Source: Methanococcus voltae (GTDB lineage Archaea; AGJL01; Methanococci; Methanococcales; Methanococcaceae). Taken from it: DNA of 64,000 nucleotides. The DNA lies in the NCBI RefSeq assembly GCF_017875395.1, contig NZ_JAGGMO010000003.1, positions 62,001 through 126,000 on the forward strand, in the 5' to 3' direction. The position numbers were made by a program, and so were the translations under genes. This document shows, one piece after another, positions 15,737 through 43,590 of this stretch. Every line of letters starts with the position of its first letter. Position 1 is the stretch's first letter. The notes under the pieces were generated by a model, which ran no database searches, was not told the DNA's origin, and saw nothing but the letters and a program-made list of their open reading frames with translations.

Positions 15737-15766
15737 AGTAACACCAATTGCAATTTATGAAATATA

Positions 15767-19027: not shown

Positions 19028-19211
19028 ATTACCACTTGTAATATTAATAATTATTATAGATTAATATAAATTATATGTAGTATATACTTATATAAATTAA
19101 ATAAACATTATTTAACCTGTTATTTTGCTAAAATAAGTATATTTTAAACATTTTTATTTTTAATTTTCCTAATTTTATCTTTATTTTTAATTTAATTATA
19201 TTAATAGTAAA

Positions 19212-19625: not shown

Positions 19626-19688
19626 GATTTCACCATAATTATAGATTGATTAAAATCAATGATTTGACATAACCAATTGTCATATTAA

Positions 19689-19982: not shown

Positions 19983-19986
19983 TTAA

Positions 19987-20226
19987 TCACCCTAATAACG
20001 TAAAACCTGCGTATATAAATGCTAAAAATACCAAAAACATTAATAAATGTTCCAAATTTTCTAATTTATGGGCTATTTTTAATTTAGGTATCATTAATGC
20101 AATTAGTGCTAAAGCCGTAAATATAGCCAATGCCCAGGTTACGTCAATTTGTATAGTATTCACAGATAGTACCATTAAAAATACTACTATAGATGCTAAT
20201 CCAATCATATGGCCGTATTTTTTCAT
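19987..20226 (-). CDS. ehaK: Energy-converting hydrogenase A membrane subunit EhaK
   Basis: The 79-residue membrane protein has two to three hydrophobic helices and short polar ends. It is assigned by position between ehaJ and ehaL in the conserved order. Its specific role is unknown. CGGTGTTATT precedes the ATG. Confidence 0.78.
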   Translation of the reverse strand: MKKYGHMIGLASIVVFLMVLSVNTIQIDVTWALAIFTALALIALMIPKLKIAHKLENLEHLLMFLVFLAFIYAGFTLLG

Positions 20227-20362
20227 AATAACACCGGGTTATTTTTTTATATAATATTAGTCGGTCTTTAATTGTATATTTGATAAATTATTTAATTTAT
20301 TTAAATTAGATAATTTAGTGATTTAGTAATCTAATAATTTAAAATATTATTTTAAAATTTAT

Positions 20363-21238
20363 TTAATGAATTAATCTGTATGCTAAATCAATTAATGTAA
20401 GCGAAGCAATTGAAATTTGAATCATTACTGAATGGTGTGGCGTTAACAGTGGCGATAATGCACAGATGAATGAAACTATAAAAGTTAATACTACCATGCT
20501 TAACAGGGCTACAGCAGGATTTAACACTAAAGGTCCTAGGAATAATGCTATAAACAACCATAATAGTACGAACCAGGCTAAAGCGTCACCTATCATAATT
20601 ATACCATGTAATAATCCATAATGTTCCGTCATATAACCGCTTACGATATCTTTACCTTTTACAATACCAAAAGGGCTAAAAGGAGCTTTTGAAACCACCA
20701 ACACAAATAATGCAAATGCACAGAGTGGTAATTGGAAAATTAAAGGACCATTTATAACTTGGTAATTAATAATATCTCCAATCATTAAAGTGTTTGTAAC
20801 TATGTAGATTATACCAACTGCTGCAAAAAGTGGCACTTCTGCCGCTGCTGAGAAAACACTTCTCACACCACCCATTTTTCCGTAAGGGGAACCACTACTT
20901 AACCCGCATCCGTGTTCAACGATTTTTTGAAGGATATATAGCCCAATCATAATTAAGAGGGACGATTGGAATATTACGGCGATAGATAGAGCACTCATCC
21001 ATACCATCATATCCATAAGCGCTACAAAAACATACAACGGATTACCTGCAGTTGAAGGAAAGGTAATTTCTTTGAAGTAAAATTTAGTTGTTTGTATCAA
21101 ATACTGGATTATTGGAGGTCCTGGCCTTCCTTGTATACGAGCTATCACTTTACGATGGAATCCGAGTAGGGTGCCACCTATTAAAAAAGCATATAGCGTA
21201 TATGCCAAAGAATTTATCATATAACTGATAGTTTCCAT
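20363..21238 (-). CDS. ehaJ: Energy-converting hydrogenase A membrane subunit EhaJ (NuoH/HycD-like)
   Basis: This polytopic protein of about 291 residues is homologous to NuoH/HycD, the subunit linking the hydrogenase module to the ion-translocating membrane arm. Family segments are RIQGRPGPP and the acidic loop VSGYMTEHYGLLHG. Roughly eight membrane helices are visible. GGGGGTGGTAATT precedes the ATG at 21238, so the GTG at 21247 is rejected. Its binding site overlaps the 3' end of ehaI, which suggests translational coupling. Confidence 0.92.
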   Translation of the reverse strand: METISYMINSLAYTLYAFLIGGTLLGFHRKVIARIQGRPGPPIIQYLIQTTKFYFKEITFPSTAGNPLYVFVALMDMMVWMSALSIAVIFQSSLLIMIGLYILQKIVEHGCGLSSGSPYGKMGGVRSVFSAAAEVPLFAAVGIIYIVTNTLMIGDIINYQVINGPLIFQLPLCAFALFVLVVSKAPFSPFGIVKGKDIVSGYMTEHYGLLHGIIMIGDALAWFVLLWLFIALFLGPLVLNPAVALLSMVVLTFIVSFICALSPLLTPHHSVMIQISIASLTLIDLAYRLIH

Positions 21239-21240
21239 AA

Positions 21241-21453
21241 TTACCACCCCCTAAATGGAATTTTGCCCATTTCTTTCCGTTTAGTACTTGGGTTTAATAA
21301 AATTCCTATTCCATATATTAAAAATGGTGTAGATACCGCCATTCCTAAATAAGAAAACAAATCGCCCAAATTTGCCAAATAAATATATAAATAGCCTACA
21401 ATTCCGATTATAAGAGCAATTATACCACTTTTGAATTCTGGAGTCAATTTCAC
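21241..21453 (-). CDS. ehaI: Energy-converting hydrogenase A membrane subunit EhaI
   Basis: The 70-residue protein has two hydrophobic helices and a polar C terminus (NPSTKRKEMGKIPFRGW). It starts with GTG, supported by GGTGAAAAT directly before it. Its stop lies 2 nt before the ehaJ start. It is assigned by order, and its function beyond being a hydrogenase subunit is unknown. Confidence 0.78.
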   Translation of the reverse strand: MKLTPEFKSGIIALIIGIVGYLYIYLANLGDLFSYLGMAVSTPFLIYGIGILLNPSTKRKEMGKIPFRGW

Positions 21454-21670
21454 ATTTTCACCAAAATGATGAGTACTTGTAATTTTATTTGTAATTTACT
21501 TATAATATAGTTGTAATTTAAGTTGTAATTTATTCATAACTTATTTCTAATAAGTAATTTTATAAATTTTAATATTGTAAGTAGTTATTATTTTAAAGTC
21601 AATATTGTTTACAGTGATTAATTCGATAGATTAGGATAAATCTCATATATTTAATTTATTTAATTATTAA

Positions 21671-22333
21671 TTATGATATAGTCAATAAAATTTCTACAGT
21701 TCTTATAATTATCAGCAATGATGACAAGTGTATCATAAGAATATAAGGTGCCCCGGGAGCCCTAAACATTTCTGCTTTTGCTGCATAAAATGGTGCAACT
21801 CCAGTTTCCCCAACCATGCCTATCGCATATATTGCCTTTTGGAATAATAAATCATTATTTTGTTTTGCTAACTCTAAAATTGACAAGGTACCTGATTTTG
21901 CCAATATTAAAGCTGCTGCACCGAATAAAGGTAGTGAAGAAATCATTGCTATGATTCCGTAATGGAAAGCCGCATTTAAAACCCATTCTTTTTTTACTGC
22001 TGCTACAATACCTATGTTAGATAATCCAATTACTGCCAAAAATAGGGCAAAATTGAATATGTCACAGGTTAGCATTGCGAAAGCTGTTGCAACACCACAT
22101 ATAACCGACATTAGTCGTCTAATCTTTAATTCATTCGGAGTTACGTAATTATACTTATCTCCAAAACTGTTAAATTGGGCTACAACTTGTTTTTCAGGTT
22201 TTGAGAAATAAACTATTATTGTAAAAATAATAGAAACAATGAAGCCAATTATAGAGAAATCAGTTACATAAAACCGGATATCGCCAAGAGGTATGATTCC
22301 GTAGAGAAATCCAGAAATTGTACTAAACACCAT
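21671..22333 (-). CDS. ehaH: Energy-converting hydrogenase A membrane subunit EhaH (NuoL/M-like)
   Basis: This protein of about 220 residues resembles a fragment of the antiporter-like NuoL/NuoM family; GVAPFYAAKAEMFRAPGAPY is the recognisable segment. It probably forms part of the ion path. It has about five to six helices and is far shorter than a full antiporter subunit (about 450-600), as is normal for EhaH. The ATG at 22333 is chosen by the GGTGATTTG site; an earlier ATG (22351) lies upstream of that site. Confidence 0.88.
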   Translation of the reverse strand: MVFSTISGFLYGIIPLGDIRFYVTDFSIIGFIVSIIFTIIVYFSKPEKQVVAQFNSFGDKYNYVTPNELKIRRLMSVICGVATAFAMLTCDIFNFALFLAVIGLSNIGIVAAVKKEWVLNAAFHYGIIAMISSLPLFGAAALILAKSGTLSILELAKQNNDLLFQKAIYAIGMVGETGVAPFYAAKAEMFRAPGAPYILMIHLSSLLIIIRTVEILLTIS

Positions 22334-22503
22334 CAAATCACCAATAAACACTTAAAACTTAAAAAGTGTTCAATATCAACAATATATTTAGGTTATAACA
22401 ATTATTTGATATTTTAATTAATATAATGTCCAATATAATGGAATATATTAATAATGAATAATTAATATTTATCAATAATTTAAGTAATAAAGGATAATTA
22501 AAG

Positions 22504-23214
22504 TTAAGGTTTCCAAATGTGACCTATTAGTCCTAATTTAGAACCTACCTTCAATACAAGCCCTAATGACGCAACTAAAAGGAATACGGGCCATTTTGAA
22601 GGCATTATAAAAAAGCCCAAAAAGCCCAATACCCAAAGTGCCCATGCAATACCTGAAAACGAGATAAAACCATCCCATATGTTCAAAAAGTCTGCTTTAG
22701 TAATCTGTTCACCAAGCACTCGCTTTGAAAGTAAATAATAAATTAAACCTGACGCCATTACCGCCCCGCCCGTGAAACCACTCAATATTGCCCCATATAT
22801 TATTAAAATTACTGCTAAAAATTTAGGACTTGTTTCCAAAATTTGCATTTTGGTAAAATTCACGTTTAAATTGGGACTTTCTTTGATTGTAAATTCTTCT
22901 AATAACTTAACCTTTCGGGATTTTGATTTACATCGTATTTTCTCGTCAGAAATATTTTTCCTAGAAATATATATCTCTGAAACGGCCAATAATTCTGCCA
23001 TACCTACAACCAAACCAGGGAGGATTAAAGCTTCAGCAAGGTCGGAACCTACAGACGCTACAATTATTAGCATAGCCAATTCAACGACGTCACTAAGTAT
23101 TATCATATTTACATCCCATTTTTCGCGAGAAATGGCATATAATGAAATAACACCAACAATTATGCCTACTATTATCGAATTACTATAAAACATACTTACA
23201 ATGTCGAGTGGCAT
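22504..23214 (-). CDS. ehaG: Energy-converting hydrogenase A membrane subunit EhaG
   Basis: A 236-residue integral membrane protein with about six helices and a basic cytoplasmic loop near residues 85-115 (SRKNISDEKIRCKSKSRKVK). It is one of the Eha-specific subunits, assigned by order. A basic loop of this kind could contact the peripheral arm, but that is inference. GGTGTAAAA precedes the ATG. Confidence 0.82.
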   Translation of the reverse strand: MPLDIVSMFYSNSIIVGIIVGVISLYAISREKWDVNMIILSDVVELAMLIIVASVGSDLAEALILPGLVVGMAELLAVSEIYISRKNISDEKIRCKSKSRKVKLLEEFTIKESPNLNVNFTKMQILETSPKFLAVILIIYGAILSGFTGGAVMASGLIYYLLSKRVLGEQITKADFLNIWDGFISFSGIAWALWVLGFLGFFIMPSKWPVFLLVASLGLVLKVGSKLGLIGHIWKP

Positions 23215-30562: not shown

Positions 30563-30589
30563 AGTAAAAAAATAATTATTTTACTTTAA
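30559..30589. terminator. Bidirectional terminator hairpin shared by convergent genes
   Basis: An 11-bp perfect inverted repeat, arms TTAAAGTAAAA and TTTTACTTTAA, surrounds a 9-nt loop. Stop codons of the plus-strand HTH gene and the minus-strand methyltransferase gene both lie in the arms. On either strand the second arm is T-rich, as expected for a two-way terminator. Confidence 0.6.
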
Positions 30590-31513
30590 CTCATAAATTG
30601 TACTATTTTTTAATCTGGAACGTGTCTTTTTTATGCACGCATTAGCCAATACGGTAGTTGTCTTATTTTTATCTGCATCATTTGAATTGGTGATATCCAA
30701 TAACACTTCACCATAATTTTTAGTAGTAGTATTGCAATCCACAGGACATTGTGAATACATATCAACATTTTCAAATGAGCAAGATAACTTACCACAAACA
30801 TGTAATATCGGATTATAACTTGGTAATCCTTCCATGATTGATTTATATTGTTCAATTATTCTTTTATTAGATATTCCGCTATAATTTTTAAAAATTCTAG
30901 GTCCTACGATATCTAAGGTACCTACAGAATCAGAATAGGATATAATTTTAGCGCCGCTTTTCGCTCCTTCCACCATATAATTTACGATACCGTCTTCAAT
31001 GTAATTTAATAGCTTCTTAGCATTTTCTGGATTTTTTCTAAGTTCTTTATAGAATATTTTAGGATCCATTAATGCAGAAACTACGGTAAAAGGTCCACAA
31101 ATGTTCAATATTACATACTCTCCCGAATTAACTAATTCCTGAGCTGCAGTTATTACGTTATTTATCCTACCTTTTTTCATACTCAAATCTATATCCAAAA
31201 TACTTTCAAAATCAGCCAATTCCTCATTTGAACTTATTAAATACTTATCAACTCTTGGACCGTATTTATTATCGCCCAATTTAATAATTGCACCAAATGC
31301 TTCAGCTTCTATAGTATTACAAAAAGGAAGTCTGCAAAACATGTCTTTTTTAACTTCTTTCATGGCCTTTGATAAGTTAATCATGTCCTGGAGGTTGTTG
31401 TGTGCTTCAGGAAACTTAAAATCACTGGCTATAGAATCAGGTATTGTTTCGAAATTATCACTAATACATTTAAAATCCGAATTTTCTTTATTATTTGTAT
31501 TCATATTATCCAT
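30581..31513 (-). CDS. Degenerate MtaA/UroD-like methyltransferase-family protein
   Basis: The 310-residue protein aligns by eye with the MtaA-like protein at 36527-37594 (shared PEAHNNLQDM, EAEAFGA and NICGPFTVVSALMDP-type segments). It lacks the first ~35 residues of the family and has a shortened C terminus. The Zn-binding His-x-Cys pair is present (LHVCGK, near residue 235), but the third ligand, in the SPACG motif of its neighbour, is missing. It may be inactive, regulatory or altered in activity. It is the most downstream gene of the methyl-transfer locus. GGTGAAATT precedes the ATG. Confidence 0.75.
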   Translation of the reverse strand: MDNMNTNNKENSDFKCISDNFETIPDSIASDFKFPEAHNNLQDMINLSKAMKEVKKDMFCRLPFCNTIEAEAFGAIIKLGDNKYGPRVDKYLISSNEELADFESILDIDLSMKKGRINNVITAAQELVNSGEYVILNICGPFTVVSALMDPKIFYKELRKNPENAKKLLNYIEDGIVNYMVEGAKSGAKIISYSDSVGTLDIVGPRIFKNYSGISNKRIIEQYKSIMEGLPSYNPILHVCGKLSCSFENVDMYSQCPVDCNTTTKNYGEVLLDITNSNDADKNKTTTVLANACIKKTRSRLKNSTIYELK

Positions 31514-31747
31514 AATTTCACCAACTTAAACAATAACGCCATTAATTGTTTAAATTCTAATCTTATACGTATATACTTAAAATTAAGTAAAAAATAAATA
31601 AAAATAAAAATAAAATTTTGGGGTATAATTATGATTTATTTGAATTAATAACATGGGGGGTTGATTTGAAATAATTTAGGGGTTGCTATAATCTTAATTA
31701 ATTTTTAATCAATTTAATCATGTTATATTATTAGCAAATATCATTAA

Positions 31748-33079
31748 TTATAAACCCTTTTCTTTTGAGAAGTACACTGAAACAGTTGCTATTGCCATAC
31801 CTATAGCTAAAGTTAACCATGCTGTTTGGTAACCTGCTATTGTAAAGCCACCTGCTGCTGTTATACCGTAACTTGCAATTATAGCACCACAAACTTGTTG
31901 TAATACTGCACCACCCACGAATGGGAAGAAGTTTAAGATAGCTGTTGAAGTACCTGCAATTGATATTGGGAATAATGATTTTACCTGACCATATGATACA
32001 ACGAAGAAACCACCGAAGAAACCAAATAAGAAGTATAAAACTTGGTAAATCAAAGGATTATCTACGCCAGTTAAAGCCCATATTGCAAACCATAATGCAG
32101 TGTAGAGTACTGTACCAATTATTAATGTCTTTTTTCTTGATTTTAAAACTTTATCTGCTAAGTAACCTGCAACAGGGCATCCAAAGATAAGACCAAGACC
32201 TATAAACATTAAAAGTCCTGCATATGTTAATTTATCCCAGCCTAGTACATCTTGGAAGTATGGGCCTGCCCATAAACCTTGATAAGCCATTAAAGAGCCG
32301 TAGAAGAAGAAGAACCAAATACCTAATGCCCAGAATGATTTTTCTTTAACTACCATTTTCATAGCATCTTTAATACCAATAGTATCTTCAGCTTTAGGTG
32401 CTTCAGCCTTTTGAGTTTCTACAGCTAGTTTTGAAACCTCTTTACCGCTTTCTAAAGCTTCAACTTCTGCTATTGTTGGGAATCCCTTATCTGAAGGTTT
32501 ATCTTTAATGAAAACGTAGGATAAAACTGCCAATAATACTGAAAATCCACCCAATCCTAAGAATACGGTTTGCCAACCTAATGAAGTGTTTAACATAGCT
32601 AAAGGAGCCGCTGCTGATAAAGCACCGATGTTACCTACAGCTAACATCACACCACTTTGTGTTGCAAACTCGTTTTTTCTGAACCAGGTTGCAAGTACCT
32701 TCATAATTGGAATATATACTGCTGCTACACCAATACCAATTAATAATCTACCTAAGATTACCATATTAAAATCTGTTGCTATACCAGTCAATAAAGCACC
32801 AATAGCAGCTACTAAGGTGAATACTGAAACAACCTTTTTAGGTCCATACTTATCTGCCAAAACACCGGAAGGTATCTGCATTAACGCATAAGCATAGAAG
32901 TATACTGAACCTAATAATGCTATTTGTCCAGCACCTACGCCGAAAGTGCTCATTAAATCTCCAGCCATAACTGCAAGAGATGTTCTGTGGAAGTAAACAA
33001 AGAAATAAACTATTGCAAGAACTGCAAACATTACCCATCTGTATTTCATCATTTTAGATATATTTTCTTTCGATAACAT
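31748..33079 (-). CDS. Major facilitator superfamily transporter
   Basis: The 443-residue protein has about twelve membrane helices in two halves. The MFS loop motif ADKYGPKK follows helix 2, and a central hydrophilic loop of ~45 residues (EALESGKEVSKLAVETQKAE) divides the halves. Segment FHRTSLAVMAGDLMSTFG resembles organic-anion and sugar-acid importers. It lies inside the corrinoid methyl-transfer locus on the same strand, so import of the methylated substrate, or export of the demethylated product, is a plausible role. GAGGTACTATT precedes the ATG. Confidence 0.88.
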   Translation of the reverse strand: MLSKENISKMMKYRWVMFAVLAIVYFFVYFHRTSLAVMAGDLMSTFGVGAGQIALLGSVYFYAYALMQIPSGVLADKYGPKKVVSVFTLVAAIGALLTGIATDFNMVILGRLLIGIGVAAVYIPIMKVLATWFRKNEFATQSGVMLAVGNIGALSAAAPLAMLNTSLGWQTVFLGLGGFSVLLAVLSYVFIKDKPSDKGFPTIAEVEALESGKEVSKLAVETQKAEAPKAEDTIGIKDAMKMVVKEKSFWALGIWFFFFYGSLMAYQGLWAGPYFQDVLGWDKLTYAGLLMFIGLGLIFGCPVAGYLADKVLKSRKKTLIIGTVLYTALWFAIWALTGVDNPLIYQVLYFLFGFFGGFFVVSYGQVKSLFPISIAGTSTAILNFFPFVGGAVLQQVCGAIIASYGITAAGGFTIAGYQTAWLTLAIGMAIATVSVYFSKEKGL

Positions 33080-33311
33080 AATAGTACCTCAAAATTGAAT
33101 TAAGCTATGATTAATCAATTTTCGGTTCAATAATTGTTATCACCAAGTCTCTCGTAATTCTATTATATCTAACTAATATATATAATATGGGCATTAGATT
33201 TATTAATAACTAAAAATTGATTAAATTAAAAAATAAAGTAAAAAATAATATAAAAATAATATAAAAATAAGTAAAAAAAATAATATAAGATAATGTAAAG
33301 ATAATATGAAA

Positions 33312-34256
33312 TTAAAAATTAAATAAATCGATGATTTCTTTTTCGTTTAAATCTTTACCAATTATGCAAATTTCAGAAGATTTTTTAGTATTTAAATTTT
33401 CAAGTTCGTAGTTATTTCCAACATAGTTAAATTCTGCATAACGTTGAACTTCTGGATTTTTCTCATCGATGTAATTAATATATCCTTTTCCCCGCATAAT
33501 TAATCCATAATCATTAGATTTTAAAGATTCTACAGCATTTTTAAAAGATTCTACATTTAAAGGATTGTTAAAACTAACTAAAACACTTGAAACGCCTTGC
33601 ATAGCCTTGTGGACATCTCCGATATAAAGTTCTTTTGAAATTGTTTCTTTACTATCATCAATGACTTTTAAAAACTTATCAGAGTCTATATCATCCCAAT
33701 TTTCAGAAATAATTATTGCATTATCATTTGTTTCTTTTAAAGAATTTACAATATTATCTAATTCATTTTGAGTTATATACTGAGATTTACTGATAATTAA
33801 CTTGTCTGCATTCTTTATTTGGTCGTTGAAAAAATCACCGAACAATTCAACTTGATCCAGGTAATTTTCACCATCAATTACAGTAATTGCAGAATTTAAC
33901 GTACAATTATCTTGAATCTCTTTGTTATTATCGTCAAGTACAATCCCAATTATTTGGCTTAAAAGACCCATTCCTGTAGGTTCTACAATGATTCTAGTAG
34001 GTTTCATGTATTCAATGATATTTTTAAGAGATTTTAAAAAGTTTAATTTTAAAGTACAGCAGATACAACCTTTTTCAAGTTCTACAACATCTAAACCTTT
34101 ATCTCTTAAGATATCACCATCGATACCAATATCCCCAAATTCATTCTCTATGATTACAATTCGTTCATTTTCTGTAGATTTAACCAATTTTTGAATAAAT
34201 GTAGTTTTGCCAGAACCCAAATACCCAGATATTACGTCTATTTTTATTTTGTTCAT
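33312..34256 (-). CDS. CobW/COG0523-family GTPase (metal or corrinoid maturation)
   Basis: This 314-residue G3E-family GTPase has the P-loop GYLGSGKTT at residues 11-19, the family metal-binding motif CICC at 64-67 and the downstream VEPTG motif. A C-terminal CobW_C-like region follows (residues ~220-314). Such proteins deliver metals such as Zn or Co or assist cofactor insertion. It begins 64 nt after the RACo-like gene ends, so a role in loading or maintaining the corrinoid or Zn methyltransferases is a reasonable inference. GGGGTGTAAT precedes the ATG. Confidence 0.85.
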   Translation of the reverse strand: MNKIKIDVISGYLGSGKTTFIQKLVKSTENERIVIIENEFGDIGIDGDILRDKGLDVVELEKGCICCTLKLNFLKSLKNIIEYMKPTRIIVEPTGMGLLSQIIGIVLDDNNKEIQDNCTLNSAITVIDGENYLDQVELFGDFFNDQIKNADKLIISKSQYITQNELDNIVNSLKETNDNAIIISENWDDIDSDKFLKVIDDSKETISKELYIGDVHKAMQGVSSVLVSFNNPLNVESFKNAVESLKSNDYGLIMRGKGYINYIDEKNPEVQRYAEFNYVGNNYELENLNTKKSSEICIIGKDLNEKEIIDLFNF

Positions 34257-34320
34257 ATTACACCCCTTAATTTCAAATTAATTTAAATAATTCGTATTTT
34301 AATTTATATTTTATTATACA

Positions 34321-36393
34321 TTATTTGTTAAAATTTAAAGCTTTGATAAATAAGTCTTCATACCCATCTTTCGTAGATAATTCACAATATTTTATTTTAT
34401 TTGCTACGTTTTCCATATTTTTTCTAGAATCTTTAGATAATAAGCACATTAGCGCACCCATTTTGGAAGAATTACCAATGTATCGAACTTTATTCTTTAA
34501 TTCTTTCGGAATTATGCCACTTCCCGCTAAGCTTTCTTCACTCAGGTGTTTTCCAAATTGCCCTGCAACTATAACTTCATCTAAATCTTGCATTGAAACG
34601 TTTAATTCATTTAATAAAGCTTCAAAACCTGATACAATTGCTGCTTTAGCCAATTGTACTTGCCTAATATCGTTTTGAGATATATAGATGTCTTTATGGT
34701 TTGAATTTGGATTAGCGTAAATTAATATGGCTCTTTTGCCATCTTTTTCGATAATACTATTTTTATAAATATCATCTACAGTATTTGGCGATTTTATACG
34801 TCCTGTCTTATTAACTAATCCAACTCTTACGATTTCAGAAATGATATCTAAAATACCGCTACCACAAATTCCCAAAGGTTCACAGTCCCCAATTACTTTT
34901 ATATCCACGTTTAATTCGTTTGTGTCATTAGACTCATTATTGTCAGCTTCTTTGAATTTAAAACCTTCTATTGCACCGTTTGCTGCCCTCATACCACAGC
35001 TAATATTCATACCTTCTAATGCAGGACCGGCTGCACAAGAACATGCAGATAATTCGCCATGATTTGATAAAACTATTTCCCCATTAGTTCCAATGTCGAT
35101 AAATAATACTAATTTATCGGTTTTTTCCAAATCAGATACTTCTACGCCAGCAACTATGTCTGAACCGATGTATCCAGAAACTCCGGGTAAACAATATATG
35201 TTACCAAATTTTGAGATATCAATATTTAAATCGGTTGCTTTCAAATACTTTGAATTTAAGAATATCGGTAAATAAGGGGATTTACCAATGGTTTTGGCAT
35301 CAATATTTAGTAAAAAATGCAACATTGTAGTATTTGCAGATATTATAACTTCGTAAATATATTCTTTAGATATTCCTTGTTTTTTAGCTAAATCGGTTAT
35401 CATTTCATTAATACATGCAATTATACTATCATGTAATAACTTTAGACCTTTTTCATTCTTTTTTGTAAAATCTATCCTTGAAAGTACGTCTAATCCGTAT
35501 TGTTTTTGTGGATTGATTCTACTTTCTGAACAAAGTTCTTTTTCATTTTGTATATCGATTAAAGAAGACACTACAGTAGTTGTTCCAATGTCTATGGCTA
35601 CTCCGTAGCAATTTGAACTAGAATTTAAAATTGAATCCGAATTTAAATCTGAATTTGAATCTATATTTTTTGAGTTATTTTCGTTTAAATTTTCGTTATC
35701 CCGAATTTCTATTCCTAATAAGTTATTTTCTGAAAAAATTACGTCAACAGCTATTTCTGATTCAGGGTTTAAATTTTTAGATAGTAATTCAGACAATCTT
35801 TGTACTGATGTTAAGATACCCAAATCATTTAAATTAAAATGTAATTTATTAACATCTAAACAATATCCATCATTTTTATCCATATTATTAACAGTATCAT
35901 TTAATAATTTTAAAAATATTTCTTCAAAAGTTTTAATATTTTTATTCGTTAAATTTTCAATATCCATCATTTTTAGCGTATCTTTTGTTATAGGACAAGA
36001 TATTTTCATAATGTTTGGATTATAGTTAAATTCTGGGATATATCCATCTGCTAAAATTTTATGGGAGCTACTCTCTTCATTGTTAGATAAATTAGCGTCA
36101 TGTAGTAAATCTACTGTTAAATCATCATAAACATAAGTTAAACAACTTAAACGAACTCCAGAACTTAATTCATCTTCTGAAAGGTATTTTAATTCCTCAG
36201 GGGAAGGTTTTGAAACATTGTTTTCATTTTGATTTAAAATTTTAACTTTACATTTTCCACAAGTTCCGGCACCGCCACATGGACTTTCTACCTTTAAACT
36301 ATTACTTTGGAGAATATTAAGCAGTAATTCACCATTGTAAAATTTTAAAACATTATTTTCAATGTTTGAATTAATTACTGTAATTATTGCCAT
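34321..36393 (-). CDS. RACo-like reductive activator of corrinoid proteins
   Basis: The 690-residue protein has an N-terminal plant-type [2Fe-2S] ferredoxin domain (Cys 39, 45, 48 and 84), a linker region, and an ASKHA ATPase domain from about 262 (DIGTTT at 268-273, later FIDIGTNGE and GSGILD). This is the layout of RACo/RamA-like activators that use ATP to reduce inactive Co(II) corrinoid to Co(I). Residues ~233-262 are a low-complexity Asn/Asp/Ser linker. Its place among the corrinoid methyltransferases agrees with this. RamA itself has a different ferredoxin layout. AGAGGCTTAAA precedes the ATG. Confidence 0.88.
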   Translation of the reverse strand: MAIITVINSNIENNVLKFYNGELLLNILQSNSLKVESPCGGAGTCGKCKVKILNQNENNVSKPSPEELKYLSEDELSSGVRLSCLTYVYDDLTVDLLHDANLSNNEESSSHKILADGYIPEFNYNPNIMKISCPITKDTLKMMDIENLTNKNIKTFEEIFLKLLNDTVNNMDKNDGYCLDVNKLHFNLNDLGILTSVQRLSELLSKNLNPESEIAVDVIFSENNLLGIEIRDNENLNENNSKNIDSNSDLNSDSILNSSSNCYGVAIDIGTTTVVSSLIDIQNEKELCSESRINPQKQYGLDVLSRIDFTKKNEKGLKLLHDSIIACINEMITDLAKKQGISKEYIYEVIISANTTMLHFLLNIDAKTIGKSPYLPIFLNSKYLKATDLNIDISKFGNIYCLPGVSGYIGSDIVAGVEVSDLEKTDKLVLFIDIGTNGEIVLSNHGELSACSCAAGPALEGMNISCGMRAANGAIEGFKFKEADNNESNDTNELNVDIKVIGDCEPLGICGSGILDIISEIVRVGLVNKTGRIKSPNTVDDIYKNSIIEKDGKRAILIYANPNSNHKDIYISQNDIRQVQLAKAAIVSGFEALLNELNVSMQDLDEVIVAGQFGKHLSEESLAGSGIIPKELKNKVRYIGNSSKMGALMCLLSKDSRKNMENVANKIKYCELSTKDGYEDLFIKALNFNK

Positions 36394-36526
36394 TTTAAGC
36401 CTCTAAATGTAGTTATATAGAAAAATTTAAATTAGATATTTAATTATTAAATATCTAAGTATTTTTATTTGATTTTATTTGATTTTATTAGATTTTATTA
36501 GATTCTATTTTTATTATTGTGACATT

Positions 36527-37594
36527 TTAATCTTTTAAATTCGAATCCGAATTTTTTGCCGTATTTACCATTGCTTGGATATTTTCTAATTTCGTCCTAA
36601 CGCCAATACCGCACGCAGGGGATAAAATATCTACTCCGAATTTTATACAAGCGTTGCTCATTCTACCTATTGATTCAGGGTTACCATTTTCTAAAGCAAA
36701 TGTACTCACATTACCCATAATTGCTTTACCTGGCACATTCTCAACAACTTGCTTTACATCAGTTATTGAATCAAAACTGATTGCATCACTTTCTAAAGTT
36801 TTTATTTCGCCGTATATACTTTTTAATCTACCGCAAATGTGAATTATAGTACCAGTTTGAGCATAATCCTGTGTTTCTTCTACCAATTTATTTAAATAAG
36901 GCATAGCATATTCTTTAAACATTTTAGGTCCTAAAATTTCACCAGTACCACTTGGGTCAGAAATTGCCAAAACGTCAGCACCTGCTTTTAATTGAGCTTT
37001 ACCAAATTTTATTAAATTATCTGTAACAAAATCCATGTATTCATGAACTTTTTCCGGTTTAGATCTAAGTTCTTTATAGTATGTAATTGGCTCCATTAAT
37101 GATGAAGCTACACTTATAGGGCCAGTTAAATTTGCAACCACAGGTACATCTTTGTCTTTATTCTTTAAAATTTGTATAGAGTCCAATATTACTTTTTCTC
37201 TGCTTATATTTCCTTTTTCATCTTTTTCATCGTTTTTAGTCGATAAAATTTCATTTAAATTCGTGTATTCGGTTACTGAATTTATTGGATATTCTGTAAC
37301 TCTTGGTTCAGTTGTTTCAGTACCCATTTTAACTTTAGCGCCCATTGCTTCTGCTTCTACAGTCATACAAAAAGGAACGCCGACATTTTCAAATCCGCCA
37401 TTTTTATATAATCCATATGTTAAATCCGCCATTTTTTGGGGGTCATTGTGAGCTTCTGGCCAATATATGTTTGTAATATCCATGATATCTTTAACTATCA
37501 TATTCATCATACCGCCAGGACATATACAAGGAGGCCTATCTACGGTTTCTTTCTCTTTTAAAACTGTTTTTAATCGTTCTTTAGGGGATATCAC
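36527..37594 (-). CDS. MtaA/MtbA-like methylcobamide:coenzyme M methyltransferase
   Basis: A 355-residue UroD-superfamily protein. The N-terminal KERLKTVLKEKETVDRPPC is typical of MtaA/CmuA. The Zn ligands His-x-Cys (IIHICG, near residues 250-252) and a later Cys (SPACGIG, near 326) are intact. MtaA-type enzymes move the methyl group from methyl-Co(III) corrinoid to CoM-SH. A CoM acceptor is the natural inference in a methanogen. The start is GTG with GGTGATTAT directly before it. It lies between the second UroD-like gene and the RACo-like gene. Confidence 0.82.
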   Translation of the reverse strand: MISPKERLKTVLKEKETVDRPPCICPGGMMNMIVKDIMDITNIYWPEAHNDPQKMADLTYGLYKNGGFENVGVPFCMTVEAEAMGAKVKMGTETTEPRVTEYPINSVTEYTNLNEILSTKNDEKDEKGNISREKVILDSIQILKNKDKDVPVVANLTGPISVASSLMEPITYYKELRSKPEKVHEYMDFVTDNLIKFGKAQLKAGADVLAISDPSGTGEILGPKMFKEYAMPYLNKLVEETQDYAQTGTIIHICGRLKSIYGEIKTLESDAISFDSITDVKQVVENVPGKAIMGNVSTFALENGNPESIGRMSNACIKFGVDILSPACGIGVRTKLENIQAMVNTAKNSDSNLKD

Positions 37595-37828
37595 ATAATC
37601 ACCGTAACATGTTGTATGGTATATTGTATATATGTATAATATGGTATGTTGTAATTGTAATCATAATTTTAATTGTAAGTTAGAATACTTTTAAGTAATT
37701 AAGTAAATTTGAAATAAATTCTTTAAAATACATTAAAAATAATCTAATTTTAATAAAAATATTAAAATTAAAAATAATAAATTAAATATAGTCATAAAAT
37801 TTCATTCTGAAATCAAATTAATTGCAAA

Positions 37829-38914
37829 TTATTCTTCGTATTTGTTAATGCTTAACAAATATTCTAATTTTTCATCAGTTACTGGCCATCCTATTTCTCT
37901 AGCAGTATCCATCATAACGTCTATGTTTTCAATAGGTGTTTCTACAGGTAAACCACATCCTGACATGATTCCGTAGCCTTTTTTAGCTTTGTAACCTTGT
38001 TGAACGGATTTTATAACAGCTTTTCTTACTTCTTCTTTAGTTCCTGCGTACATTACTGCGGAAGGATCAACATTACCTGTTACTACCATTCTATCGCCTA
38101 TTGTGTTAACACAATCTTCCATATCTGCTATATCATCAATACTAAATGCGTTAATACCCATATCTGCTATATCAGTCCATATTGCTTTAGTTTGACCGCA
38201 AATGTGAATTGAAACCCCATTGAGTTTTGATTTTATAAAGTCTACATATTTTGATAAATATGGAGCACAGTATTCTCTGAAGTGTTTAGGGCTTATAACA
38301 GTACATGAAGCCATAGGTTCTGCAATGCTTATGCCTACGCCAGTTTTTATAGCTGCGTCGGTGAATCTGATACAGTTTTCGAGTGATATTTCACATAACT
38401 TGTGAACTGATTCAGGGTCTTTTATCATTAATTTGGTCATTTTTTCAACGCCGATGATAAAACAAGCATTTGTAAATGGACCTACAATAAGTGCAGTACA
38501 TGGAACTTCGTCTTTTAATTCTTCATGAACGTATTCCATTGCTTTTAAGTGAATAGGCAATCTTGCATCATTGTAAGGGTCAATTAAAGGTATTTTATCA
38601 ATTTCTGAGATATCGTTTATTGCAGGCTCTAATAAATCAACTGTATCATCGTCAGGCATTTTCATTTTAGCGCCCATTGCTTCTGACAATAAAAATAAAT
38701 CGGTGAATACTTTGGCACCGTCTGCACCAAATCTTCTATAGGTTGCAATAACTGCATCAGCCAAAGCTCTTGGATCTTTATTAAAATCTGAAATTTTACA
38801 ACCTGAAATTCTTGCAATACCGTTTGAAAGGTTAGGGTTGCAAGGTAATCTATCAACTGGTTCGCCGTTTGCTTTTGCTCTAGCTCTTTGAAGAGGAGTC
38901 ATCTTATCTTTCAT
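37829..38914 (-). CDS. UroD-superfamily substrate:corrinoid methyltransferase, paralog 2
   Basis: The ~361-residue protein begins MTPLQRARAKANGEPVDRLP like corrinoid-linked UroD-family methyltransferases. The probable Zn or substrate ligands IHICG (near 236) and SGCGLP (near 316) are present. It is a clear paralog of the gene at 39209-40297, with long shared segments such as DPESVHKLCEISL and CTVISPKHFR. A pair of such enzymes next to a corrinoid protein suggests two related methyl donors or a heteromer. True uroporphyrinogen decarboxylase activity is unlikely here. The ATG at 38914 follows GAGGCAAAC. Confidence 0.8.
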   Translation of the reverse strand: MKDKMTPLQRARAKANGEPVDRLPCNPNLSNGIARISGCKISDFNKDPRALADAVIATYRRFGADGAKVFTDLFLLSEAMGAKMKMPDDDTVDLLEPAINDISEIDKIPLIDPYNDARLPIHLKAMEYVHEELKDEVPCTALIVGPFTNACFIIGVEKMTKLMIKDPESVHKLCEISLENCIRFTDAAIKTGVGISIAEPMASCTVISPKHFREYCAPYLSKYVDFIKSKLNGVSIHICGQTKAIWTDIADMGINAFSIDDIADMEDCVNTIGDRMVVTGNVDPSAVMYAGTKEEVRKAVIKSVQQGYKAKKGYGIMSGCGLPVETPIENIDVMMDTAREIGWPVTDEKLEYLLSINKYEE

Positions 38915-39208
38915 AGTTTGCCTCATGCTACTAGTAAGTAATTTTTCGTATGTTTTGTTAATTGAAATTAAAATAAAATTAAAATTAAAAATTAAACCAA
39001 AACTAAAAAATTCTTTAAATGAATGGATATTTATTGGGAGTATTTAAAATATGTAAAATATGGATTTAAATTGTTTAAATTACTATTGAATTAATATTTA
39101 GGAGTATTAATGTTATATTTAAAGATTGAGAGACTTAAATAATAACAATATATGTTAAACCAATAATTTTTTTAATCATTATTTTGATTTTTGATTTTTG
39201 ATTTTAAA

Positions 39209-40297
39209 TTACTCGTATTTTGTAATAGCCATTAATTTTTCTAATTTTTCATCAGTTACTGGCCATCCTACTTCCCTTACTGTATCCATCATCGTTTGTA
39301 TGTTTTCAATAGGGGCTTCTACAGGTAAACTACATCCTGACATTATAATAAAGCCTTTTTTAGCCTTGTAACCTTCTTTAATACTTTTTAAAGTTGCTTT
39401 TCTAACTTGTTCTTTGGTTCCTGCAAACATCACTGCAGAAGGGTCGACGTTACCGGCTACAGCCATTTTATCGCCCACTCTATCAGCACAAAGTTTTAAA
39501 TCAGCAATATCGTCAATACTTAATACATTGACACCCATATCTACCAAATCATCCCATATTGGATCAGTTTTACCGCAGATGTGTAATACAATATTTCCTA
39601 CACCTTTTGATTTCATATAATCAATCAAACGTTTAAGGTATGGTGCGGAATAATTTCTAAAGTGTTTAGGGCTTATTACAGTACAAGAAGATAATGGTTC
39701 TGAAATTGTAACACCCACGCCTTGTTCCAAAGCCGCGTCAGTTAATTTCATGCAGCTTTTTAATGAAATTTCGCATAACTTGTGAACTGATTCAGGGTCT
39801 TTTAATAACATTTTAGTCATTTTTTCGATGCCTATTAAAAAGAAGGCATTTGTAAATGGACCAACAACTGAAGCCGTTACTGAAACTTCGTCGCCAATTT
39901 CATCCTTAACTTTTTTCATGGCCCTTAAATGTACAGGTATTCTGCCATCGTTGTACGGGTCGATTATCTTTAAATCGTCTATTTTTGAAATATCGTCAAT
40001 TGCAGGTTCTTCCAAATCTGCAGTGTTATCTTCAGGTTTATTAACCTTTGCACCCATTGCTTCAGCTATTAAGAACAAATCGGTAAAAACTCTTGTACCA
40101 TCCATTCCAAACATCTTGTAAGATTTTATAACAGCATCCGCTAAAGCATCAGAATTACTATTAAACTCTGAAATTTTGTACCCTGCAATTCTTGCAATAC
40201 CATTTCCAATGTTTGGGTTACAAGGTAACCTATCAATTGGTTCACCGTTTGCTTTTGCCTTGGCTCTTTGAGCAGGGGTCATTTTGTCGCTAATCAT
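39209..40297 (-). CDS. UroD-superfamily substrate:corrinoid methyltransferase, paralog 1
   Basis: The 362-residue paralog of the next gene has the same N-terminal signature and the ligand motifs LHICGK (near 237) and SGCSLP (near 317). It starts 100 nt after the corrinoid-protein gene ends. B-component proteins of this superfamily demethylate O- or S-methyl compounds onto Co(I) corrinoid; the actual donor is unknown. Replacement of SGCG by SGCS next to the ligand Cys is one visible difference between the paralogs. GTGATATAG precedes the ATG. Confidence 0.8.
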   Translation of the reverse strand: MISDKMTPAQRAKAKANGEPIDRLPCNPNIGNGIARIAGYKISEFNSNSDALADAVIKSYKMFGMDGTRVFTDLFLIAEAMGAKVNKPEDNTADLEEPAIDDISKIDDLKIIDPYNDGRIPVHLRAMKKVKDEIGDEVSVTASVVGPFTNAFFLIGIEKMTKMLLKDPESVHKLCEISLKSCMKLTDAALEQGVGVTISEPLSSCTVISPKHFRNYSAPYLKRLIDYMKSKGVGNIVLHICGKTDPIWDDLVDMGVNVLSIDDIADLKLCADRVGDKMAVAGNVDPSAVMFAGTKEQVRKATLKSIKEGYKAKKGFIIMSGCSLPVEAPIENIQTMMDTVREVGWPVTDEKLEKLMAITKYE

Positions 40298-40397
40298 CTA
40301 TATCACAATCTAATTAGATTTAATTACTTAATTATTAAATTAAATGCTAATGCTAAATATTACTATCAATTTTAAACTTAAAAATAAATTCAAAAAA

Positions 40398-41069
40398 TTA
40401 ATTTAATTTTGAATCTTTTAATTTTGAAACTAATTCTTTTGCAATTCTTGCAGATTTTGAAGCTTCAGGAGCATAACCGTCTGCGCCAATTTTATCAGCA
40501 AAGCTTTGTGAGATAGGACCGCCACCAACCATTACGATGGTATTGTCTTTCATTTTTTGTTCTTTTAAGATGTCAATAACAACTTTCATGTTATCCATTG
40601 TAGTTGTCATAAGTGTTGACAATCCGATTACATCTGCATTTACTTCTTTAGCTTTCTCTACGAATTCAATAGGTGGTACATCCCTACCTAAATCGTAAAC
40701 TTCGAAACCTTGTGTTTCTAACATTATTTTAAACAAGTTTTTACCGATGTCGTGAGTATCCCCTTCTACAACACCTACTACTGCTTTCATTTTTTCATCA
40801 TTTTCTGAATATTTTAAATGAGGTTTTAAAATATCCAACCCTTTGTACATCGCGTCAGAACATACTAATAATTCAGGTATGAAGTATTCCTCTTCTTCGT
40901 ACATAACACCTGCTCTATTCATTCCATCTGCTAATCCTTTTGAAATTCCTTCAAATGCGTCGTATCCATTTTTAATATATGCTTCAGATAATTCTTCTGT
41001 TAAATCTTCATCCATTTCTAAAACGGCATCTGAAAGTTGCTTTATCATATTTTCTTGTGACTCTGTCAT
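40398..41069 (-). CDS. Methyltransferase cognate corrinoid protein
   Basis: The 223-residue protein has the two-part MtaC/MtbC/MttC layout: a helical cap domain (~1-90) and a B12-binding Rossmann domain (~94-220). The cobalt-ligand motif DTHDIG is at residues 104-109 (His106 as lower axial ligand), followed by LSTLMTTTM and VGGGPIS. It would shuttle the methyl group between the UroD-type donors and the MtaA-type enzyme. The ATG at 41069 is used (GAGGCCAAAT); an ATG at 41081 precedes that site. First large gene of the locus. Confidence 0.92.
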   Translation of the reverse strand: MTESQENMIKQLSDAVLEMDEDLTEELSEAYIKNGYDAFEGISKGLADGMNRAGVMYEEEEYFIPELLVCSDAMYKGLDILKPHLKYSENDEKMKAVVGVVEGDTHDIGKNLFKIMLETQGFEVYDLGRDVPPIEFVEKAKEVNADVIGLSTLMTTTMDNMKVVIDILKEQKMKDNTIVMVGGGPISQSFADKIGADGYAPEASKSARIAKELVSKLKDSKLN

Positions 41070-41494
41070 ATTTGGCCTCATATATTAAGATTTTTAATAG
41101 GGTAATCATATTTATTAATGTTTAGATTATAGCACCCCATATTATGGTAATCAATATATTTATAATTTTCATTAGAAAACATAATATCGAATAAGGATGT
41201 AAAGAAATCTATTAAGAAGTACTTTAATTAAAATAAAGTTAGTTTTAATATATTTTTAAAAATGATAATATTTGAGGGATTAAATCGTCAAAAAATAGGA
41301 TAAACTATAAAGAAATTATTGAGATTAGTATATTTAAATAAACAAATACTATTAGTTAAAATTTAAAAATACGGAATAAATAATAAGTTAATAATATTGT
41401 AATATAACAAATAGATTATTTATTTTGTATAGAACAATATTAGTAAGTCATGTAATGGTATAATTAACTAATTAATCAATAGTTAAGTAATTAA
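41070..41494. other. 425-nt control region upstream of the corrinoid-protein gene
   Basis: No gene is seen. It carries one copy (41319-41341) of a 23-nt exact direct repeat whose other copy precedes the regulator gene. It also has a spaced TTTGA / TCAAA pair (41271-41275 and 41288-41292). The corrinoid-protein promoter must lie here. Confidence 0.55.
41319..41341. repeat. 23-nt direct repeat, copy 1 (palindromic core TATTTAAATA)
   Basis: This sequence is identical over 23 nt to 41781-41803. The core TATTTAAATA is self-complementary and could be a TATA box or an operator. The two copies flank the small Cys-rich gene in the same orientation. Confidence 0.75.
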
Positions 41495-41644
41495 TTAATT
41501 GTCACAACAATTGCAGAGTTTTGCCATACAGTATACGGGAGTACCGCCTTCTAAATGTGCATTAATACAGTCTTTACAGTTACCATAGTGAGGACACTCT
41601 GTGTTAGGGCAATTACAATTTTCATTCTTTATACAACATTCCAT
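41495..41644 (-). CDS. Small Cys-rich protein, 49 residues
   Basis: The predicted protein is 49 residues with 10 Cys, starting MECCIKNENCNCPNTECPHY and ending CNCCDN. The pattern of Cys pairs resembles small Cys-rich proteins of the DUF6485 type found in anaerobes, which are presumed metal binders; that match is by eye only. A perfect GGTGAAATT site precedes the ATG, so I consider it real. It lies between the regulator and the corrinoid protein of the methyl-transfer locus. A Zn, Co or Fe-S binding accessory role is possible but unproven. Confidence 0.72.
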   Translation of the reverse strand: MECCIKNENCNCPNTECPHYGNCKDCINAHLEGGTPVYCMAKLCNCCDN

Positions 41645-41704
41645 AATTTCACCAAAATATTTTTTATATTTCAATATTATTCATTTATTTTTAAAATTTT
41701 CTTG

Positions 41705-41740
41705 ATTTGAAATATCAAATACTTGAATTATATATTCAAG
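41705..41740. promoter_or_regulatory. Tandem inverted repeats with TTGA half-sites
   Basis: ATTTGA-aata-TCAAAT (41705-41720) is followed one base later by CTTGAAT-tatat-ATTCAAG (41722-41740). They lie in the 259-nt divergent promoter between the Cys-rich gene and the regulator. Shared TTGA/TCAA half-sites suggest cooperative binding of one regulator. Confidence 0.45.
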
Positions 41741-41780
41741 GAAGTACACATATACTTAATTGTCAGCGAAATATTCAATT

Positions 41781-41803
41781 TTGAGATTAGTATATTTAAA
41801 TAA
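41781..41803. repeat. 23-nt direct repeat, copy 2, upstream of the regulator
   Basis: This is an exact copy of 41319-41341, about 100 nt before the regulator ATG at 41904. That is a sensible position for a TATA-type promoter or autoregulatory site with a leader of moderate length. Confidence 0.75.
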
Positions 41804-41903
41804 CCCTATTAAAATATTAGATATTATAAAATTATAGAATAAAATATTAAATTTAAAAATAAAATAAACTTAAAATAATTGATATCAAAATCTCGGGTAG
41901 ACT

Positions 41904-42665
41904 ATGAAACAAGAACGAGAATACAATTCAGACTATGAATCAATAAAAGATATTAAAAAAGATATAGTAACGTTATATGGGAAATTAAATAAATTAATAG
42001 AAAATATGGAGTTAACTACACTTGAAGAAGATGAAGGTGGCAAAAAAAGTATAATAAGCGATTTTAAGAATAATGAATATAAGGAAGATAAAGAAGATAA
42101 TGACGATGAATTATACATAAATATTCAGAATGAAGAAAAGTTGAAAAAAAAGTATATGGGAGAGTTTAAAAAATTTTTAAAGAAAAACAAATTTTTAGAC
42201 TTTGAAGGTGAAAGCCCCGATGAGATCATAGAACATTATAAACATAGAAGTACACTTAGCAAAAAAATACCACTATTTAACAAAGAATGTAACTATGAAA
42301 ATAGTGACGCCCTTGAAAAACAGCACGCACTTATAAAATCATTAGGCGTTAAAGATACGGAAAATGAAATCAAAGAATTTATAAATATAGGGGAAAAAGA
42401 AACCTACGAAATATTAGAACCAATTTCAAACATTCACAGGTTAAAAATTGCAAAATCACTATTATATGCAAATCATAGTTTTTCAGAACTTTCAAACATT
42501 ACAGGACTAAAATCTGGCAATTTATTATTCCATTTACAAAAACTGCAAAATTCGGGTATTATATTTCAAAAATTCGAAAAAGGAAATTACTATTTATCAA
42601 AAAAAGGAGAATATATTATAAAATCGCTTTTTAAAATTGTAAACGTATCTAAATTACTAGAATGA
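41904..42665 (+). CDS. Winged-helix regulator divergent from the methyl-transfer genes
   Basis: The 253-residue protein has an N-terminal acidic, helical region (~1-70, poly-Glu/Asp/Lys), a middle domain that I do not recognise, and a C-terminal ArsR-like winged helix (~170-250). The winged helix runs LYANHSFSELSNITGLKSGN, then LLFHLQKLQNSGIIF and a wing ending in KKGEYI. It is the only gene of the locus on the plus strand and faces away from the Cys-rich and corrinoid genes. That geometry suggests it regulates them. GGGTAGACT precedes the ATG. Confidence 0.75.
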   Translation: MKQEREYNSDYESIKDIKKDIVTLYGKLNKLIENMELTTLEEDEGGKKSIISDFKNNEYKEDKEDNDDELYINIQNEEKLKKKYMGEFKKFLKKNKFLDFEGESPDEIIEHYKHRSTLSKKIPLFNKECNYENSDALEKQHALIKSLGVKDTENEIKEFINIGEKETYEILEPISNIHRLKIAKSLLYANHSFSELSNITGLKSGNLLFHLQKLQNSGIIFQKFEKGNYYLSKKGEYIIKSLFKIVNVSKLLE

Positions 42666-42969: not shown

Positions 42970-43590
42970 TCACCTCTTTTTTAATCCGACCACTCTTGAT
43001 TGGATGTGTTTAGGGAAGTAATCCAAAGGATTTTCGCCTCTTGACCTCAATACTGCCCTTATTTCGGTTTCATAATCCGATTTTAAGAGTTCTTCACTCT
43101 CTTTTTCTGAAATTTCGAAATAATTATTAACAAGATTTCTTAAAGTTTTATGTCCGAAACCCATAAGTGGAGTTATATACTGAATATTCTTTCTCATCTC
43201 TAAACTTTGAACTTCTGCGTGGCTTAACTTAGGGACTCTGTCGTCTCTCCTCGTACCATCTGCAATAACCTCAAAATCATCAGAAATAATATTCAATGTT
43301 TCTTTGTGAATGTATTGTATTCCATTTGATGGGAATCCATCATTTAAGATAATATCAACAGATTTTTCAAGAATTTCGCTATCCAAGCTTATAACCTTAT
43401 GAGAATAATTTAATATTTTAGCAGTATTTTGAGCATGAATATAGGAATCCAAAACTCCAAAATTTATGGTCACTAATTCTATATCGTATCCTAGATTATT
43501 TAGAATTATAGCCGATAAGGAACTATCTTTACCGCCGCTAAACAATACATGGGCCTTACTATCCATATTATTGGTATTAATTGCATCCAT
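42970..43590 (-). CDS. PP-loop superfamily ATP-pyrophosphatase-type protein
   Basis: A 206-residue soluble protein with the PP-loop motif SGGKDSS near residues 18-24 and a conserved ADGTRRDDR segment. PP-loop enzymes adenylate carbonyls, as in tRNA thiolation or amidation; the substrate of this archaeal family is not known to me. Its fixed place between the PDCD5-like gene and L39e suggests a translation-related job. It starts 12 nt after the PDCD5-like gene ends. TTGTGAGACA precedes the ATG. Confidence 0.82.

Follow-up and report, generated by a model that had tools for sequence, protein, structure and literature searches.

The closest described counterparts of the methyl-transfer locus analyzed here, which lies in a stretch of 64,000 nucleotides from Methanococcus voltae (assembly GCF_017875395.1, contig NZ_JAGGMO010000003.1, positions 62,001 to 126,000; hereafter the window), are clusters that act on methylated selenium. 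SdmABC of M. voltae (Niess & Klein 2004, as described in citing papers) comprises a corrinoid protein and two close paralogues of the Mlp2 methyltransferase type. A preprint by Kountz and Balskus (PMC10418091) cites this dimethylselenide work, reports that dimethylselenide is no longer used when sdmC (Mlp2) is mutated, and states that Mlp1 and Mlp3 of M. voltae had escaped notice. It also defines type 1 mlp clusters, naming Methanococcus, Methanothermococcus and Methanotorris among their holders, describes a clostridial Mlp2 (ClMlp2) that moves a methyl group from methylcobalamin to selenide, and 4.3-fold more slowly to sulfide, and assigns part of the mlp clusters to methyl-sulfur compounds. 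For M. maripaludis JJ, PMC11097638 reports that MMJJ_01650-70 rise by 5.6-7.8 log2 units on selenium depletion, and MMJJ_01610, encoding a SauU-like major facilitator superfamily (MFS) transporter, by 6.3 log2 units. We place the window locus with these systems, and put at roughly 0.88 the probability that it is the Methanococcus sdm, or type 1 mlp, cluster, freeing selenium from methylated selenium compounds (dimethylselenide, methylselenol). Both this kind of cluster and its function are already in print, and our additions are minor.

Read in the direction of transcription on the minus strand, the locus encodes a corrinoid protein, two UroD-type methyltransferases (U1 and U2, 66% identical), an MtaA-like protein, a RACo-type activator, a CobW-type GTPase, an MFS transporter and a compact UroD-type protein. 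An earlier note on this DNA had seen here, in a genome of the Methanococcus type, a locus for corrinoid methyl transfer, and that description holds: every part it named is an intact open reading frame (ORF) with Pfam matches above cut-off, to which we add the compact UroD-type protein that was not on its list. Set against the published description of type 1 mlp clusters, the locus has at least one Mlp2 and one Mlp3 (judged from the tree described below), a corrinoid protein and a Ram/RACE activator in the same cluster, and a His-Cys-Cys zinc site in all four UroD-type proteins; for the optional Mlp1, the compact protein is a candidate, its clade of compact proteins being represented (support 100/100). 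The host makes selenocysteine, its genome carrying a SepSecS gene. SdmABC as named leaves out the Mlp3, compact UroD, RACo-type, CobW and MFS proteins found here, and its likeness to the window locus is drawn from published descriptions.

Profile searches, in the window proteins and across a survey of 36 Methanococcales genomes (G000 being the window genome), separate the locus from the methanol and methylamine systems. The MtaA-like protein passes the methylcobalamin:coenzyme M methyltransferase subfamily model NF004889 (469 bits, cut-off 244) and the MtaA/CmuA subfamily model TIGR01463 (247 bits, cut-off 235), on which U1 and U2 (202 bits on the first model, 203-204 on the second) and the compact protein (155 and 78 bits) stay below cut-off. 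It does not reach the methanol-specific MtaA equivalog NF040654 (256 bits, cut-off 400), whose cut-off is reached in 0/36 Methanococcales genomes, nor the MtbA equivalog NF041608 (215 bits, cut-off 600). No cluster protein reached the MtaC or MtbC equivalog cut-offs, and a search of the cluster proteins, leaving aside the rest of the genome, gave no match to the MtaB, MtmB, MtbB or MttB models. The best solved relative of the MtaA-like protein is MtaA (4ay7, E 4e-47). The activator carries RACo domains, matching RACo 3zyy across its ASKHA part (E 1.4e-99), and scores 114 bits against the RamA model TIGR04270 (cut-off 500). The locus thus resembles MtaABC/MtbA of Methanosarcina in its zinc-activated substrate, corrinoid carrier and MtaA-type second methyltransferase, but is not a member of that system, its activator being RACo-like and not RamA.

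To compare zinc sites, we aligned 106 UroD-type rows and read the ligand positions against MtaA. His-Cys-Cys is present in 26/26 MtaA-like rows, in 45/47 Mlp2 rows (the other two being frames that run off contigs and lack the third position) and in 16/19 compact rows (the other three lacking the His), while the single HemE row, from Rhodoblastus, has F-R-H. The carboxylate or missing zinc ligands that PMC10418091 gives as the trait of OdmB/VdmB-type O-demethylases are absent from all four window proteins. Because these His-Cys-Cys sites have no carboxylate among the metal ligands, O-methyl donors are disfavoured. UroD and corrinoid proteins are encoded by separate genes here, unlike in CmuA, which we take to have both domains fused in one protein.

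Phylogenetic analysis of the same 106 rows (G017, G019 and G033 excluded as near-duplicates, and four bacterial rows of <200 or >420 residues dropped) recovered the compact proteins as a clade of 19 rows (100/100) and the Mlp2 proteins, including U1 and U2, as a clade of 47 (100/99); the 26 MtaA-like rows sit between them, unresolved as a single branch. Those from Methanococcus, four in number, group together (100/99) within an 11-row group that includes bacterial cluster proteins (90/94). Likewise, all six Mlp2 rows from Methanococcus cluster together (100/99), nested with Hathewaya, two Clostridium and Lutibacter sp. B2 rows in a larger group of ten (100/96). The names Mlp2 and Mlp3 were assigned by gene context and PMC10418091, not by its reference sequences, and the tree's sole characterized coenzyme M methyltransferase is 4ay7, with MtbA, MtsA, OdmB, VdmB and MtoB not included. 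MtaA 4ay7 and the HemE row (branch 3.55) attach on the Mlp2 side, both on long branches for which the program issues a warning, and we base no conclusion on their placement; in this our tree differs from the published one, where Mlp2 is sister to MtaA-type, Mlp1 and Mlp3 proteins (PMC10418091).

Clusters of the same kind are widespread in bacteria. Scanning named genomes with the U1/U2 alignment yielded 69 loci, 40 of which (L053-L092) showed 51-61% identity. Many of these end at contig ends and the gene counts are therefore lower bounds: at least 35 of the 40 carry the corrinoid protein, 24 an MtaA-like protein, 20 an activator, 16 a compact UroD (248-453 residues), 5 CobW and 2 a weak MFS match, with corrinoid protein, Mlp2, MtaA-like and RACo-type proteins together in at least 20. 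Bacterial type 1 mlp clusters as described by Kountz and Balskus (PMC10418091) share these four components with the window, and often the compact UroD. In Hathewaya massiliensis (L065), corrinoid protein, U, MtaA-like, RACo-type, CobW and compact UroD genes follow the window order, at 70, 68 (to U2), 63, 46, 38 and 46% identity, and the corrinoid protein is also 70% identical in Lutibacter sp. B2. Horizontal transfer between anaerobic bacteria and Methanococcus fits these relationships best, with the direction probably into Methanococcus, although the tree is rooted for drawing only. A difference from the bacterial clusters is that the window's host, as a methanogen, has coenzyme M.

Within Methanococcales, URO-D matches above cut-off occur in 9/36 genomes, with a sub-cut-off match in one more and none at E up to 0.001 in the 14 genomes of the other family. 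Locus comparison places the cluster in 6/7 genomes of the window's genus (G000, G015, G016, G017, G019 and G020; not G018), the corrinoid protein being 97% identical in G019, 90% in G020 and 81-82% in G015, G016 and G017. CobW genes lie in the clusters of G015, G019 and G020, and the retrieved regions of G016 and G017 showed none. Outside the genus, the three genomes G022, G033 and G035 have a diverged cluster of a corrinoid protein, three UroD-type proteins and an activator; in the tree, UroD-type proteins of G022 and G035 group outside Mlp2 with a second Mlp of G015, and two of the three kinds are long-branched. This second Mlp-like gene of G015 (L051:5013-6071), perhaps the counterpart of MMJJ_16960, has an upstream corrinoid gene (L051:4346-5013) split over two reading frames.

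Comparison within the genus also bears on how gene roles are assigned. G015 carries a seven-gene set (MFS, compact UroD, CobW, RACo, Mta, U and corrinoid) that lies some 9 kb from its frc hydrogenase genes, a layout that by our own mapping fits the JJ locus tags 01610-01670 and 01770-01800, so that MMJJ_01610-01670 would comprise the same seven gene kinds, as deduced from the G015 layout and the locus-tag count. By layout we refer to G015-G017 as the M. maripaludis type. Relative to the window, G015 has one Mlp2, carries the MFS and compact UroD genes on the other strand, and lacks the regulator and Cys-rich ORF discussed below. The MFS transporters of the window and G015 share 77% identity, and from its place in the gene order the window protein would correspond to MMJJ_01610 (SauU). 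The single Mlp2 of G015, G016 and G017 is the U1 orthologue (73-75% identity to U1 vs. 64-66% to U2); no U2 orthologue was found in these three genomes, where the next gene is MtaA-like.

PMC11097638 sets MMJJ_01670-50 beside SdmABC and describes SdmC as a coenzyme M methyltransferase, while PMC10418091 describes SdmC as an Mlp2. Should G015 represent M. maripaludis, the third operon gene there would be the MtaA-like Mlp3 and not a U2 orthologue, and U2 would be missing although the species uses dimethylselenide. Because M. maripaludis-type genomes keep one of the two paralogues, equating their third gene with SdmC looks doubtful. By gene order, U1 would be SdmB and U2 SdmC; if so, the paralogue needed by M. 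voltae would be the one lacking in M. maripaludis. For the coenzyme M step, the MtaA-like gene is a stronger candidate in either species. The absence of one Mlp2 paralogue from some Methanococcus genomes therefore means that gene roles are not transferable by order, and the window cluster is of the same kind as that of M. maripaludis, in a lineage retaining both Mlp2 copies.

Table 1 Features of the locus and of related regions (window positions unless a locus handle is given)
Feature	Position	Strand	Matches and remarks
Corrinoid protein, SdmA-type, MtbC/MtgC-like	40398-41081	-	B12-binding + B12-binding_2 (Pfam); motif DTHDIG
U1, UroD-type methyltransferase (Mlp2)	39209-40297	-	URO-D (Pfam); His-Cys-Cys
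U2, UroD-type methyltransferase (Mlp2 paralogue)	37829-38926	-	URO-D (Pfam); His-Cys-Cys
MtaA-like methyl-cobamide methyltransferase (Mlp3)	36527-37594	-	URO-D (Pfam); His-Cys-Cys
RACo-type ATP-dependent reductive activator, [2Fe-2S] + ASKHA	34321-36393	-	RACo_C_ter + Raco_middle + Fer2 (Pfam)
CobW/COG0523-type GTPase	33312-34256	-	cobW + CobW_C (Pfam); GCICCTL motif
MFS transporter	31748-33079	-	MFS_1 (Pfam)
Compact UroD-type protein, 310 residues	30581-31513	-	URO-D (Pfam); His-Cys-Cys
Operon promoter/leader, conserved	41082-41241	-	imperfect inverted repeat beside TATA box
Exact 23-bp repeat, copy 1	41319-41341	+	upstream of corrinoid gene
Cys-rich ORF, 49 residues	41495-41644	-	between regulator and operon
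Exact 23-bp repeat, copy 2	41781-41803	+	between Cys-rich ORF and regulator
Winged-helix regulator, divergent	41904-42665	+	HTH_5 (Pfam)
Polyferredoxins, two, hydrogenase-like set	14325-15098, 15767-17047	-	
Complex1_49kDa/NiFe-type subunit, hydrogenase-like set	17261-18391	-	
NADHdh-type membrane protein, hydrogenase-like set	20363-21247	-	
DUF2105 membrane protein, hydrogenase-like set	22504-23214	-	
Diverged clusters	L048:6002-11228 (G022), L049:3917-9142 (G033), L050:3799-8941 (G035)		UroD-type about 336, 270, 314 residues

Taken as an sdm cluster, the locus would work as follows. U1 or U2 would move the methyl group of a zinc-bound methyl-selenium compound to Co(I) of the corrinoid protein, a step predicted here from homology and the active site and shown in part in print by the M. 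voltae mutants and the methylcobalamin:selenide activity of clostridial Mlp2 (PMC10418091). The MtaA-like protein would then pass the methyl group from cobalt to a thiol, most likely that of coenzyme M, from which it would leave as methane, and the RACo-type protein would re-reduce corrinoid that had slipped to Co(II). The freed selenide would enter selenophosphate and selenocysteine synthesis. CobW, a probable metal chaperone, would supply metal, perhaps zinc or cobalt, and the MFS protein would import the selenium species or a related anion. The compact UroD protein could act as an additional methyltransferase, its substrate being a different methyl-selenium or methyl-sulfur compound.

Several points weigh against this reading. 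Since SepSecS is found in 36/36 Methanococcales genomes, with or without the cluster, its co-occurrence is uninformative; a His-Cys-Cys site suits sulfur as well as selenium; and the upstream DNA, examined below, has yielded no element reproducibly shared with the selenium-controlled frc/vhc intergenic region. In PMC11097638, deletion of sauU altered the response only to selenocyanate and selenocystine, a reporter rising fivefold on selenocyanate, with most double mutants not showing that rise; because of this limited effect and its loss in most double mutants, the case for the MFS protein is weak. The assignment of substrate draws on homology and on published relatives. The His-Cys-Cys sites lend some plausibility to a cluster that serves chiefly to salvage sulfur or methionine by demethylating methyl-sulfur compounds (methanethiol, dimethylsulfide, methylthio compounds), with selenium as a side substrate, and the slow sulfide activity of ClMlp2 and the mlp clusters that PMC10418091 itself assigns to methyl-sulfur point the same way. 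Nevertheless, M. voltae genetics and M. maripaludis induction both indicate selenium, and ClMlp2 favours selenide; we therefore regard this alternative as unlikely.

The presence of an MtaA-like protein and a RACo-type activator, in a gene set that resembles methylotrophic clusters, could also suggest true methylotrophy, with an O-, S- or N-methyl donor not yet described feeding methyl-coenzyme M, methane formation and growth. We consider this very unlikely, given metal sites that disfavour O-methyl donors and clusters of the same kind in many bacteria, most of which, to our knowledge, are not known to make coenzyme M. The selenium phenotypes that PMC10418091 and PMC11097638 give for the clusters of M. 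voltae and M. maripaludis also speak against it. Of the two roles that the earlier note had offered, growth on an undescribed methyl donor is thus unsupported and the scavenging of a methylated compound is upheld, here as methyl-selenium demethylation, while its statement that the donor was unknown has been overtaken by the dimethylselenide use of M. voltae and the selenium-depletion induction in M. maripaludis reported in those two sources. That the four URO-D genes are uroporphyrinogen decarboxylases of the haem pathway has a negligible chance of being right: Pfam recognizes the four proteins only as URO-D, and in the tree HemE, a lone and very long branch, sits between MtaA and Mlp2 instead of apart, but all four reach only 27-108 bits on the hemE model TIGR01464 (cut-off 303), carry His-Cys-Cys where HemE of Rhodoblastus has F-R-H, and have corrinoid and RACo neighbours. 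The window genome (97% complete) has no URO-D matches beyond these four proteins. Grouping with true uroporphyrinogen decarboxylases, which the earlier note had named as a refutation, thus finds no backing in the profiles or the active site; the tree, having a single long HemE branch, carries no weight on this point.

The compact fourth UroD-type protein is probably Mlp1. A pseudogene was considered and ruled out, as each of the other five cluster-bearing Methanococcus genomes encodes the protein in one open frame of 291-315 residues. Its two Cys ligands are the same in 15/15 aligned rows; the last Cys takes the third zinc-ligand position in the wide 106-row alignment, and lies beside another Cys of the MtaA-like protein in the smaller one. 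The predicted structure (predicted local distance difference test score 89, predicted template modelling score 0.89) has MtaA as its best structural match (Z 19.8, root-mean-square deviation 3.0 over 235 residues). For specialists, a useful detail is that this compact enzyme is conserved and its zinc site complete.

Upstream of the corrinoid gene, whose start may be the ATG at 41069, which follows GAGG, instead of 41081, 160 base pairs (bp) are 97% identical to G019 and 84% to G020, while the seven gaps inside the cluster show only 47-87% and 30-62%. This block, better conserved than those gaps, is under constraint and may give the operon its own control. It contains an inverted repeat adjoining the TATA box, perfect in G017 (AGTTTTC-N5-GAAAACT) and with 2 mismatches in the window, where by itself it is not rare, two further matches occurring in 64 kb (49080 and 62075). 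Across 7 genomes, the repeat-plus-TATA pattern at up to 2 mismatches gave 6 matches, of which 4 are the sdm site; the sdm site of G000 and G019 needs 3 mismatches, at which a reversed control yields more matches than the pattern. We looked for a selenium box common to the sdm and frc/vhc promoters and found none, the inverted repeat (gaps 3-6) being unmatched at up to 2 mismatches in the frc/vhc loci L194-L198. The local alignment of sdm and frc/vhc upstream regions was reached in score by 3 and 23 of 200 shuffles for the two strands in G000, but by 56 and 84 in G020, and so was not reproduced. Neither a structured leader RNA (z +0.9) nor any Rfam match in the window at gathering thresholds was detected. 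This conserved leader provides a concrete target for finding a selenium-responsive factor.

Between the operon and the divergent regulator lies a Cys-rich ORF that is 88% identical in one close relative and has no Pfam or NCBIfam match at E up to 1. The earlier note had counted the regulator as part of the locus, and we also considered it as a conserved sdm regulator; neither is supported, since only G000 and G019 have the orthologue next to the cluster, and in G020, where the cluster is intact and the flanks are the same, the regulator is missing from this place. The Cys-rich ORF occurs in 3/36 genomes (G000, G019 and G017), always divergent from a regulator of this HTH_5 family. The G017 pair, its regulator 35% identical, lies far from the sdm cluster beside other genes, and regulator homologues without the ORF occur in G022 and as second copies. 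The G017 homologue (L233:3067-4063), divergent from a 47-residue Cys-rich ORF, has several Cys, compared with one in the window regulator. Regulator and Cys-rich ORF therefore look like a two-gene module of their own, one that adjoins the cluster without belonging to its core.

In the window strain, an exact 23-bp element flanks the Cys-rich ORF on both sides; elsewhere in the genome it occurs once with 3 mismatches and never with fewer, and it was not found at that level in G019, G020 or G017. A literature search on the CobW gene of this cluster, the regulator/Cys-rich pair or the leader brought up no paper that we recognized. One speculative and rather unlikely reading is that the regulator and the Cys-rich protein make up a mobile switch, responsive to selenium or metal, that this lineage acquired at the sdm promoter; the 23-bp element would then control both the Cys-rich gene and the operon, and the Cys-rich protein would act as a selenide or metal carrier. 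How methanogens sense selenium is described as unknown in PMC11097638, and the switch, if real, would offer a handle on it.

Further genes in the window lie outside the cluster. A DUF7411/PRK14561 protein (42970-43590), with weak QueC and TtuA matches, adjoins it in G000, G019 and G020. At 14325-23214, the minus strand carries energy-converting hydrogenase-like genes, putatively Ehb. A protein of the DUF364 "heavy-metal chelation" type (2526-3365), with a FecCD-type permease nearby (4518-5615), suggests metal or cobalamin uptake, possibly useful to the corrinoid pathway.

Together, these results point to a cluster whose purpose would be to supply selenide when selenium is scarce, and which probably confers no new mode of growth on a methyl compound. 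This would explain why a hydrogenotrophic methanogen carries a seemingly "methylotrophic" gene set: it would serve micronutrient supply, not energy.

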